In this document: positions 28,800 through 32,882 of the stretch, in pieces
How positions within the stretch are numbered: position 1 is the stretch's first letter
Layout of the letters: the number at the start of each line of letters is the position of its first letter
NCBI GenBank assembly: GCA_014860115.1
Contig: JACZKK010000206.1
Coordinates: 1-64,000, forward strand
Reading direction: 5' to 3'
Length of the DNA stretch: 64,000 nucleotides
Origin: Ignavibacteriaceae bacterium
GTDB taxonomy: Bacteria; Bacteroidota; Ignavibacteria; Ignavibacteriales; Ignavibacteriaceae
Program-made: the position numbers and the translations under genes
Notes under the pieces: model-generated
What the model saw: only the letters and a program-made list of their open reading frames with translations
What the model was told of the DNA's origin: nothing
The model's database searches: none

Positions 28800-30023
28800 A
28801 TGGCTGAAAAAAGTTTCGACATATTAGTAATAGGTGGAGGAATAATAGGGACAGCTACTGCACTTTCCCTACAAAACAGCTCAAAATTAAACATTTTATT
28901 GATTGAAGCTGAAAAAAAGCTTGCATTCCATCAAACAGGAAATAACAGCGGGGTCATTCATTCCGGACTTTATTATAAACCTGGCTCGTTAAAAGCTAAG
29001 AACTGCACTGATGGAAGAGAATTGCTTTATAACTTTTGTGCAGAGCAAAATATTCCTCACCAGAAATGTGGAAAAATTGTAGTTGCGACCAACGAATCCG
29101 AACTAAATGCCCTTGATGAATTATATAAAAGAGGAATTGCAAATGGTTTGAATGGAATTAAAAAACTAAGTGCAAATGAGATTAAAAATTATGAGCCTCA
29201 CACAACAGGAATTGCCGGTATATTTGTTCCTCAGACAGGTATAGTTGACTACTCAAAAGTTACCGATGCTTATGCAAAATTATTTTTAGAAGCAGGGGGT
29301 TATCTTGAAACATGTTGCAAGTTTTTATCTTTAAATAATGCTAATGGTGAGCTTATCGCAATTACAACAAAAGGTGAATTTAAAACAAAGTTTCTGGTAA
29401 ATTGTGGCGGGTTATATTGCGACAGGATTGCAAAACTTTGTGGAGTCAATCCCGGGTTGCAGGTTGTTCCTTTTAGAGGAGAGTATTATAAACTGAAAAA
29501 AGAAAAAGAGTATTTGGTTAAAAACTTAATTTATCCCGTTCCCGATCCACGCTTTCCATTTTTAGGAGTTCACTTTACGCGAATGATTAAAGGCGGTGTC
29601 GAAGCCGGACCAAATGCAGTGCTTGCATTCAAAAGAGAGGGATATACTAAAAAAGATTTTTCTGTTTCCGATCTATCACAAATGTTTTTTTATGCCGGTT
29701 TCTGGAAGATGGCTTCAAAATACTATAAGATGGGCTTTGGAGAATTCTATCGTTCATTCAGTAAGAAAGCTTTTGTAAGTGCATTACAGAAATTAATTCC
29801 TGAAATTCAGGAAGAAGATATTGAGGTTGGTGGTGCTGGTGTCAGAGCTCAAGCTCTTGAACCTGACGGAAAACTTGTAGATGATTTTAGAATTGTGGAA
29901 TCAAATAAAATGGTTCACGTTTTGAACGCACCTTCGCCGGCAGCAACAGCTTCGTTAAGCATTGGAAGAACCATAGCTGAAATTGTAAAAAAGAATTTTG
30001 ATACTAGGTCAACAAGGGTGTAG
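28800..30023 (+). CDS. lhgO: L-2-hydroxyglutarate oxidase
   Basis: FAD-dependent oxidation of L-2-hydroxyglutarate to 2-oxoglutarate, membrane-associated in E. coli. The dinucleotide motif GGGIIGTATALSL is at residues 11-23; family features follow: HQTGNNSGVIHSGLYYKPGSLKA, PQTGIVDYSKVTDAY, VPFRGEYYKL, and the C-terminal VGGAGVRAQALEPDGKLVDDF and HVLNAPSPAATASLSIGR. Length 407 is right. It starts 185 bases from the divergent YceI operon; no Shine-Dalgarno site. Confidence 0.93.
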   Translation: MAEKSFDILVIGGGIIGTATALSLQNSSKLNILLIEAEKKLAFHQTGNNSGVIHSGLYYKPGSLKAKNCTDGRELLYNFCAEQNIPHQKCGKIVVATNESELNALDELYKRGIANGLNGIKKLSANEIKNYEPHTTGIAGIFVPQTGIVDYSKVTDAYAKLFLEAGGYLETCCKFLSLNNANGELIAITTKGEFKTKFLVNCGGLYCDRIAKLCGVNPGLQVVPFRGEYYKLKKEKEYLVKNLIYPVPDPRFPFLGVHFTRMIKGGVEAGPNAVLAFKREGYTKKDFSVSDLSQMFFYAGFWKMASKYYKMGFGEFYRSFSKKAFVSALQKLIPEIQEEDIEVGGAGVRAQALEPDGKLVDDFRIVESNKMVHVLNAPSPAATASLSIGRTIAEIVKKNFDTRSTRV

Positions 30024-30212: not shown

Positions 30213-30662
30213 ATGAAAACAGTAAATGAGATTCTTGAAAAAAAAGGAAACCAGATCTGGTCTGTTACACCGGAAATAACAGTCTTTGATGCATTAAAAT
30301 TAATGGCTGAAAAAGAAATAGGTGCTGTTCTGGTTATTTTAGATGGTAGAGTTGTTGGAATATTGTCTGAAAGAGACTATGCAAGGAAAGTGGCGCTGTA
30401 TGGTAAATCCTCTCTCCAGATGACAGTTAAAGAAATAATGTCAGCCAATGTTATCTATGTAGAAATTTCGCAAAGTGTTGAAGAGTGTATGGCTTTGATG
30501 ATACATAAACGAATAAGACATCTGCCGGTATATAAAGAAGGCAAGTTAGCTGGATTCATATCAATTGGCGATGTGGTAAAAGCACTGATTGATGAAAAGG
30601 AGTTTGTAATCGATCAATTGGTACATTATATAAAAGATACACCTCCAATAAAAAATAATTAG
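30213..30662 (+). CDS. Tandem CBS-domain protein
   Basis: 149 residues forming one CBS pair. CBS1: WSVTPEITVFDALKLMAEKEIGAVLVIL with GILSERDYARKV; CBS2: VKEIMSANVIYVEISQSVEECMALMIHKRIRHLPVYKEGKLAGFISIGDVV. Such stand-alone pairs bind adenine nucleotides and regulate partners in trans; here no partner is evident. AAGGA before the ATG. Ends 68 bases before the methyltransferase gene but is probably separate. Confidence 0.9.
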   Translation: MKTVNEILEKKGNQIWSVTPEITVFDALKLMAEKEIGAVLVILDGRVVGILSERDYARKVALYGKSSLQMTVKEIMSANVIYVEISQSVEECMALMIHKRIRHLPVYKEGKLAGFISIGDVVKALIDEKEFVIDQLVHYIKDTPPIKNN

Positions 30663-30730: not shown

Positions 30731-31804
30731 ATGAACTCTCCTGAATTAAAGCGTGATGATTTTTTTCTGATCATTAGTTCCTGCATGGACAAAACAAATC
30801 TGGATGAAATTAAACGGATCATTACTTCGCTAAAAAACATAGCCACAGAACTCATTAGTGAGGATGGAAATAACATATTAATTAAAACAGATAATGCTAT
30901 AATTGAGTACTCGTACAAACTCATTCAAAAGGAATTTGAACAGATCCTAAATACACGTACTATTGAAAGAACCAAGTATTATCTTAACCGATTGCTCAAA
31001 AGTTTATCAGTTCAAAAGGAAGGAAAAATTAATGATTTAAATTTGAATAGATGGAAAGAGTATGATGATATAATCACAGACAGTCTGTGGATATTTGATA
31101 AGAGGGACACTTCCGGTATGCACAAAGCAGGATACTGGGGAAATTTCATTCCGCAAATTCCAAATCAACTACTAAGGAGATTTACAAAAAAAGGAGAATG
31201 GGTTCTTGATCCTTTTCTCGGCAGCGGGACAACTTTAATTGAATGCAAAAGACTTGGAAGAAATGGAGTTGGTGTTGAACTAATCAAGCAGGTTGCAAAT
31301 ACAACCGAATCAAATGTTATGAGGGAAAAAAATCCTTTTAAAGTTAACACAAAAGTGGTTAGTGGAAATAGTGCTGCTATTGATTACAAGCCCTTATTAA
31401 AAAAATTGAAAATGAATTCATTTCAGTTTGTAATTATGCATCCTCCCTATTGGGACATAATCAAATTCAGCGATAATAAAGATGATCTCTCAAATGCAAA
31501 ATCAACACAGGATTTTTTGGGAATGTTCAAAAAAGTTGCTGATAACATTTATCCACTCCTTGATAAAGGAAGATATTGTGCAGTAGTCATTGGCGATAAA
31601 TATTCAGCGGGAGAATGGATTCCACTTGGATTTTACGTTATGCAGGAAATGATGAATAAGGGTTTTAAGTTGAAATCAACTATTATAAAAAATTTTGATC
31701 AGACAACAGCAAAGAGAAACCAGAAAGAATTATGGCGCTACAGAGCCTTAGCCGGCGGGTTTTACATTTTTAAGCACGAGTACATATTCTTATTTCAAAA
31801 ATAA
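30731..31804 (+). CDS. DNA methyltransferase-like protein (N4/N6 amino type), candidate R-M modification subunit
   Basis: 357 residues. SAM-binding motif I is WVLDPFLGSGTTLIE (D160-P-F-L-G-S-G), preceded by KAGYWGNFIPQIPNQLLRRF as in N4-cytosine/N6-adenine methylases. Motif IV is VIMHPPYWD (237-242): HPPYW in place of the usual [DNST]PPYW. Motif I precedes motif IV. The first 110 residues are an unrecognised, largely helical extension. It is followed after 12 and 10 bases by a META lipoprotein and a PD-(D/E)XK-like protein. No Shine-Dalgarno site. A structural-RNA methylase is the main alternative. Confidence 0.72.
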   Translation: MNSPELKRDDFFLIISSCMDKTNLDEIKRIITSLKNIATELISEDGNNILIKTDNAIIEYSYKLIQKEFEQILNTRTIERTKYYLNRLLKSLSVQKEGKINDLNLNRWKEYDDIITDSLWIFDKRDTSGMHKAGYWGNFIPQIPNQLLRRFTKKGEWVLDPFLGSGTTLIECKRLGRNGVGVELIKQVANTTESNVMREKNPFKVNTKVVSGNSAAIDYKPLLKKLKMNSFQFVIMHPPYWDIIKFSDNKDDLSNAKSTQDFLGMFKKVADNIYPLLDKGRYCAVVIGDKYSAGEWIPLGFYVMQEMMNKGFKLKSTIIKNFDQTTAKRNQKELWRYRALAGGFYIFKHEYIFLFQK

Positions 31805-31816
31805 TCCGAGATTTAT

Positions 31817-32233
31817 ATGAAAAAAAAGGATGTCCTCCTTCTGTTATTAATAACTGTCATAATTCCTAACTGTTCGTCGAGCAAAGAAGAAGCTGATATT
31901 CGTCTGCACGATATATGGGCGATTGAGTCAATTGAGAGTTACGCAGTTCTTATTGATGAGAGCATAAAAAATCTTCCTGTTCTCGAGATTTATGTTGCTG
32001 AAAAGAGAGTTCACGGAAACACAGGGTGTAATACTATTAACGGCGAAGTTAACATTGATGGGAACAATATCACTTTTCAGAACATAGTTACAACAGAAAT
32101 GGCTTGTCCCGGTAATCTTGAACAGAGATTCTTAACTAACCTGATTAAAGTGAACAGATATAAAATTGAAAAATTGAGATTGCATTTGTTTGAAGATGAC
32201 AAAGAATTAATGGTCTTCAAGAAAATTGATTGA
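31817..32233 (+). CDS. META-domain (HslJ-like) lipoprotein
   Basis: Export signal MKKKDVLLLLLITVIIPNC, with a Cys at residue 19 in a weak lipobox. The META domain is evident from VHGNTGCNTINGEVNIDGNNITF and TTEMACPGNLEQRFLTNL, ending ELMVFKKI. Such domains occur in HslJ (novobiocin tolerance in E. coli) and in secreted inhibitors. It lies between the methyltransferase and nuclease-like genes with 12- and 10-base gaps, so it is co-transcribed with them, although no link to DNA modification is known. Confidence 0.8.
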   Translation: MKKKDVLLLLLITVIIPNCSSSKEEADIRLHDIWAIESIESYAVLIDESIKNLPVLEIYVAEKRVHGNTGCNTINGEVNIDGNNITFQNIVTTEMACPGNLEQRFLTNLIKVNRYKIEKLRLHLFEDDKELMVFKKID

Positions 32234-32243
32234 TCCAATATAA

Positions 32244-32882
32244 ATGGACGCTGAACTAATCAGTATTGAAAAAGAATTAAAAAAAAGATTGTCATACCCA
32301 TATAAGTGGGGAAGAAAACAAAACGATGAATTTGACAAGCTGACAAATTTTGTTTACAGAATTCCTTCCTTTGATGAAGTCTTAAAAGAAACCGAGAACA
32401 GGTTCAGCGAAGACAAAGAACATCAAAACATTGCCAACTATGCCTTGAACCGCTGGTACAACTTCTGGTCAGCCCAGTCAGTTGAAAAAATATTCTGTTC
32501 ACTTCCGAATGTTAAACCAGCATTAGATGAAAAAGACAGGCTCGTTGATTTCACGATTGATGGTGTTACATTTGATCATAAAACTTCAGTCTTCCCAAAA
32601 AATTTTCCGCTTTCTATTGAAGAAGCAATCAAGAAAACTGATGAGCTAATTCGATGGTTATACAAGCATCAATCGCAGCAGCAAAGAAAACATTTAAAGA
32701 ACAGACTATTCATCGTTCTCTATTCTGCAGATGGCGAGCACTGGAAACTAAAGGCAGAAATTTCCTGGCTCAAAGATAGAATTGAAAAATACATGCAAGG
32801 TTTCAATCCACATTTCTTGATGAAATTCCAATTTGAAAAGAATCAGGAAACTTTCTCTGATGTAATCTGGGCAATTCGTTAA
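32244..32882 (+). CDS. PD-(D/E)XK nuclease-like protein, candidate restriction endonuclease
   Basis: 212 residues, no signal or membrane segment. I see a core pattern of the PD-(D/E)XK fold: E81 in a helix (QSVEKIF), then D102 in RLVDFTIDG, then D111-x-K113 in VTFDHKTSVFP, with correct spacing and beta-strand context, followed by a helix (SIEEAIKKTDELIRWLYK) and the strand NRLFIVLYSA. No family name is recognised. Position after a DNA methyltransferase supports a restriction role; that is inference. Confidence 0.55.
   Translation: MDAELISIEKELKKRLSYPYKWGRKQNDEFDKLTNFVYRIPSFDEVLKETENRFSEDKEHQNIANYALNRWYNFWSAQSVEKIFCSLPNVKPALDEKDRLVDFTIDGVTFDHKTSVFPKNFPLSIEEAIKKTDELIRWLYKHQSQQQRKHLKNRLFIVLYSADGEHWKLKAEISWLKDRIEKYMQGFNPHFLMKFQFEKNQETFSDVIWAIR

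Follow-up and report, generated by a model that had tools for sequence, protein, structure and literature searches.

A candidate CATG-directed Type II restriction–modification cassette in Ignavibacteriaceae, and a nuclease-like protein family that changes its methyltransferase partner

NlaIII, an HNH-type enzyme, and IceA1 (HpyI) represent the ICEA family (PF05315), the target of which is CATG. The same tetranucleotide is served in the chlorovirus PBCV-1 by CviAII (A251R/A252R), a pair of an m6A methyltransferase and an endonuclease (PMC7248222), and in Ureaplasma parvum by UpaP162 (UPV_229/UPV_230), the R protein of which cuts CATG and was reported to have neither homologues nor a recognised nuclease domain (PMC6191088). 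A different arrangement is found for PacI, an orphan restriction enzyme in a genome that lacks its sites (PMC3488263). MhoVII (PMC12898733) was also taken up as a lead and was dropped, as it methylates GATG/CATC.

Here we describe a cassette on contig JACZKK010000206.1 of an Ignavibacteriaceae bacterium (the window is the whole stretch analysed, positions 1 to 64,000 of the forward strand, 64,000 nucleotides), in which a DNA methyltransferase (M), a META-domain lipoprotein-like protein and a predicted nuclease (R) are encoded in a row. Its predicted target, CATG, an assignment that is new in this analysis, would be shared with NlaIII and IceA1; unlike those systems, however, neither R nor the members of its family match PF05315, and M is of a type with an HPPY motif IV rather than a D12 enzyme. 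The predicted system resembles CviAII in joining a methyltransferase and an endonuclease for CATG, and resembles UpaP162, which is from a different phylum, in its putative M–R operon, with the nucleases of CviAII, FatI and UpaP162 compared here by description only.

Cassette layout, methyltransferase and partner replacement

The positions of the three open reading frames, their common forward strand and the short intergenic gaps of 12 and 10 bases, all of which had been read from the sequence in an earlier note, are borne out (Table 1), and from the spacing a single transcript is plausible. When one genome was scanned for each species, the nearest relatives also bore the label Ignavibacteriaceae. 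Directly upstream of the cassette lies a CBS-domain gene (30213-30662), which is preceded by an FAD-oxidoreductase-like gene (28800-30023). Upstream of several other M–R pairs (loci L004, L008 and L012) stand genes of one cluster encoding 404-405 residues, a possible sign that these pairs occupy a common chromosomal site.

Table 1. Features of the cassette, in window coordinates
Feature	Position	Strand	Basis
M: 357-aa DNA methyltransferase with motif I before motif IV (HPPY)	30731..31804	+	Pfam, PADLOC and 2zie matches
M motif I codons, DPFLGSG, residues 160-166	31208..31228	+	sequence; D, F, G, S and G kept across the M family
M motif IV codons, HPPYW, residues 237-241	31439..31453	+	sequence; HPPY in 38/38 relatives
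Gene for a META-domain, lipoprotein-like protein of 138 aa; likely passenger between M and R	31817..32233	+	Pfam META; gene context
R: predicted PD-(D/E)XK endonuclease, 212 aa	32244..32882	+	invariant residues, AF2 model; no library match
R codon E81, possible extra metal ligand, helix 1	32484..32486	+	at least 90% conserved
R codons D102 to K113, D-x8-D-x-K, putative active site	32547..32582	+	D102, D111 and K113 invariant

M matches the Pfam family N6_N4_Mtase (PF01555; E = 8.3e-24, 85.2 bits against a cut-off of 26.7) and, over nearly its full length, the PADLOC MTase_II profile PDLC03351 (E = 2.5e-140). Both of the motifs that had been picked out earlier are present and are conserved among relatives of M: the SAM-binding motif I, which extends as DPFLGSGTT over residues 160-168, and motif IV, in which His departs from the first residue of the (D/N/S)PP(Y/F/W) pattern of N6_N4_Mtase. 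The latter departure is itself a fixed trait of the aligned relatives, and other features place M among the amino DNA methyltransferases despite it; a literature search returned no paper linking HPPY to a DNA methyltransferase motif. Alignment to 2zie, a putative modification methylase, is obtained in two blocks of swapped order (M residues 218-291 on chain residues 28-101, and M residues 139-205 on chain residues 220-286), which is direct evidence of a circular permutation in M. The proposal that these traits set the methylase apart is not borne out: the I-before-IV order and the His are real, but both are fixed in a family that PADLOC MTase_II already covers. The M of the window is a full-length match to PDLC03351 with no difference from it, while its partner nuclease lies outside that library; the novelty is in the nuclease and not in the methylase.

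Relatives of M also occur alone or with other neighbours. At L085, L088, L090 and L092 the gene after M encodes a protein of ~350-390 residues that is distinct from R (cluster 29), one member of which has a sub-threshold match to NucS_C (E = 0.005); cluster 29 probably represents a second nuclease that pairs with this type of M. A Fusobacterium relative of M (L117) adjoins further nuclease-like genes and was uninformative about the target. Viral sequences scanned with M returned no match, and neither the plasmid nor the phage collection held a close M.

The neighbourhood survey suggested for M and R bears out a conserved pairing. The scan with a single genome per species recovered 55 loci that encode R relatives, to which whole-genome searches added more, and among the 67 loci with an R of about 44% identity or more (a few of them the same place fetched twice) a methyltransferase is adjacent in 59, being of HPPY type and upstream of R in 23 and of the D12 class in 36. 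The gap between D12 and R is often 0-6 bp. Of the remaining eight loci, two lie at contig edges. At L018, L044, L051, L052, L054 and L055, six R homologues in all, no methyltransferase gene stands close by; at L015 the last 21 residues of M are still present. The partner follows lineage, with the HPPY type in Ignavibacteria, a D12 adenine methylase in Flavobacteria and, in one viral contig, a methylase fused to ParB. The D12 partner represents a different class of methyltransferase (Pfam MethyltransfD12, E = 3.1e-53; PADLOC MTase_II, E = 1.9e-139), and in the viral contig (L256) R overlaps a gene in which ParB-like and methyltransferase parts were recognised by eye from the sequence. In viral contigs R also stands just before D12 (L259 and L261). 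Viral sequences scanned with the R profile yielded a single contig, not identified as a chlorovirus, and R homologues numbered one in the plasmid collection and none in the phage collection. Pairing of R with unrelated methyltransferases is as expected of a nuclease with a fixed site.

A trace of an IceA-type (NlaIII-type) enzyme is found next to one such D12 gene. A search for the ICEA family over 396 genomes of the phylum yielded a single remnant, and no match in the genome of the window. The remnant (L248, G104:C54:22337-22429) comprises 31 residues of the ICEA C-terminus and ends just upstream of an intact D12 gene of the family that partners R in Flavobacteria. It represents a decayed NlaIII-like system, and its position implies that the D12 partner family probably once served a CATG enzyme.

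CATG avoidance in carrier genomes and on a Priestia replicon

When expected counts are derived from 3-mer frequencies, no 4-mer palindrome of the window is depleted more strongly than CATG (46 observed, 170 expected). CATG is likewise the most depleted in three relatives that carry the system (479/1051, 344/940 and 244/986, observed/expected) and is far less depleted in two relatives without it (1130/1262 and 771/1054), and it ranks first in depletion in the pooled loci of Aequorivita, Mesonia and Dokdonia, where the partner is D12. As CATG was already suspected from the look of the D12 partner, a scan of all motifs, for which the carrier and control groups had been chosen beforehand, provides the fairer test. 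Among 136 4-mers, only CATG shows clear depletion in all carrier groups and in none of the controls, and it remains the only clear separator of carriers and controls when 512 5-mers and 2080 6-mers are included.

Beyond these few genomes, avoidance was measured as the count of CATGWWWW against that of the reversed pattern. In the family of the window this ratio is 0.37-0.74 in 6 carriers versus 0.90-1.75 in 6 non-carriers (exact p = 0.0011), and at the level of the order 8 carriers are separated from 24 non-carriers with p = 4e-6, both p values treating related genomes as independent. The ratios of G173 and G195 are only mildly low. The orphan R homologue on a Candidatus Gracilibacteria contig (L051, 48% identity) is not accompanied by avoidance (41 CATG, 39 expected). 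Genomes that combine M with a different R are mixed, with 29 CATGWWWW against 721 controls in G182 (which holds L088) and no shortage in G021 and G099. In a further genome, G186, where the searches recovered relatives of neither M nor R, 57 CATGWWWW stand against 841 controls, and some other CATG system may be acting there.

An independent case is provided by the sole R homologue of the plasmid collection, an orphan of 32% identity on pFDU301A of Priestia megaterium FDU301 (NZ_CP045273.1), which is entered as a circular plasmid of 1.08 Mb (L249, L250 and L251). Three 50-kb samples contain no CATG at all against 127, 116 and 122 expected (365 per 150 kb), and the entire record contains 0 CATGWWWW against 962 reversed controls. 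The sister plasmids pFDU301B and pFDU301C are normal (168/172 and 165/187 CATG in 50 kb each). Other methyltransferases are encoded on pFDU301A, so that orphan here means that none lies beside R. The case resembles solitary enzymes of the PacI type in that an orphan R homologue is found where CATG is not; the differences are that the site would be of 4 bp and is absent from a 1.08-Mb replicon while the sister plasmids keep it, and that the R of the window itself has an adjacent M. pFDU301A further encodes a Bacillota-like RNA polymerase beta subunit, and other RNA polymerase subunits and FtsZ, SMC and RNase J-like proteins were recognised by eye. No SSU rRNA was found on it, and no tRNA in the sampled parts. 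The replicon may be a megaplasmid or a giant phage-like element.

Site avoidance is correlative evidence for the target, and the strongest alternative is that the cassette is a Type II system for some other sequence, with the CATG depletion reflecting lineage bias or another system. In its favour, many of these genomes, carriers and controls alike, are also poor in GATC, GGCC and CTAG, and mild avoidance of CATG is seen in some genomes that lack R, such as the non-carrier G009 (CATGWWWW ratio 0.58). We nevertheless regard it as improbable, because CATG is the only clear separator at 4-6 bp and the association spans Ignavibacteria, Flavobacteria and a Bacillota replicon with different methyltransferase partners. 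A D12 relative of family PDLC03257 was not found in the genome of the window, which would also speak against a second system; the control genomes were equally unmatched, however, so that this search says little. CATG is accordingly retained as the predicted target with high, although not full, confidence.

The R family and the META gene

R itself has no match in Pfam (E up to 1), NCBIfam, PADLOC or the PDB sequences, and the profile of its family retrieved only chance PLK4 rows from the latter. An alignment of 52 R sequences shows no variation at D102, D111, K113, Q143, R148, R154 and K170 and at least 90% conservation at E81; the E81, D102, D111 and K113 pattern remarked on in the earlier note is thus present in R and typical of the family. 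The AlphaFold (AF2) model built from the alignment has a mean pLDDT of 91.5 and a pTM of 0.89, and consists of a helix at 60-85 that carries E81, strands at 90-92, 103-105 and 108-116, helices within 125-141 and a strand at 154-160. This alpha-beta-beta-beta-alpha-beta order is that of the PD-(D/E)XK core. In the model D102 falls just before strand 103-105 and D111 and K113 fall within strand 108-116, so that D and D-x-K are placed on adjacent core strands as in a PD-(D/E)XK active site. The fold search that had been proposed for R did not return a significant nuclease template, as Foldseek matched the model to no entry of PDB or BFVD at E up to 0.001; the assignment of a nuclease fold is therefore based on the AlphaFold topology and the invariant residues, from which we infer that R is a PD-(D/E)XK nuclease.

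The absence of a sequence or fold match to a known nuclease, together with the ability of M relatives to stand alone or beside other genes, would also be compatible with R being another kind of methyltransferase partner, such as a regulator or a DNA-binding accessory protein. This is highly improbable in view of the invariant D, D and K and the near-invariant E at PD-(D/E)XK positions, the association of the family with unrelated methyltransferases and the loss of CATG from the replicon that holds an orphan homologue. R is thus preferred as a nuclease. REBASE may already list members of its family as putative R genes.

More distant R-like proteins were also encountered. Those at L066-L068, L089 and L104 have 277-304 residues and follow an HPPY methyltransferase. 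At L104 (G083:C9) an HPPY methylase, an R-like protein of 304 residues and a D12 methylase stand in a row, where one nuclease may have two unrelated protectors. At L070 (G156:C38) a protein of 727 residues fuses a D12 methyltransferase to an R-like region and is possibly a single-chain restriction–modification enzyme. At L069, L071 and L073 an R-like protein of 367 residues follows a protein of 391-409 residues that matches profiles of Type II methyltransferases, such as PDLC03319 at L069, and constitutes a further type of partner.

The middle gene of the cassette is a real one, as the earlier note held, with a match to Pfam META (E = 2.1e-20) and an N-terminus with a conserved Cys-Ser-Ser that fits a lipoprotein. 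On gene context it is rejected as a working part of the system. Only the window and its near relatives L002, L003, L005 and L057 have META interposed between M and R, and elsewhere the slot spans just a few bases (L011, L013 and L062) or is filled by a Y1 transposase (L004 and L014) or a HEPN gene (L017), so that META is best read as a passenger. That it is a working part, and the three genes a new defence unit linking the envelope to restriction, is scarcely credible even though META is kept with short gaps in the window and those four relatives (44-67% identity), as it is absent from most M–R pairs and a lipoprotein would not meet cytoplasmic DNA.

Proposed mechanism and implications

The earlier proposal of a restriction–modification cassette is supported by the conserved pairing of M and R, the replacement of the partner, the nuclease-type residues and the avoidance of CATG. 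On sequence grounds we consider it very probable that the locus is a Type II system in which M methylates and R cuts CATG, with META as cargo that has no role in restriction. M would methylate CATG in host DNA, most likely at the adenine, and R, as a small PD-(D/E)XK endonuclease, would cut unmethylated CATG in incoming DNA, using D102, D111, K113 and probably E81, and probably as a dimer.

A wider reading is offered more tentatively, namely that R belongs to a PD-(D/E)XK lineage with a fixed CATG target that has taken at least three unrelated methyltransferase partners, and that once, without a methyltransferase of its own on a CATG-purged replicon, could be used against CATG-bearing DNA in the same cell.

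As neither Pfam nor NCBIfam nor PADLOC contains a model of the R family, scans for defence systems would flag the methylase only. The family now gains a concrete and cheaply testable predicted target, CATG, and a residue map. The swapping of R among unrelated methyltransferases is a good case of a target being kept while the protector changes, and the CATG-poor Priestia replicon offers a natural setting in which to test whether losing a 4-bp site serves as self-protection.
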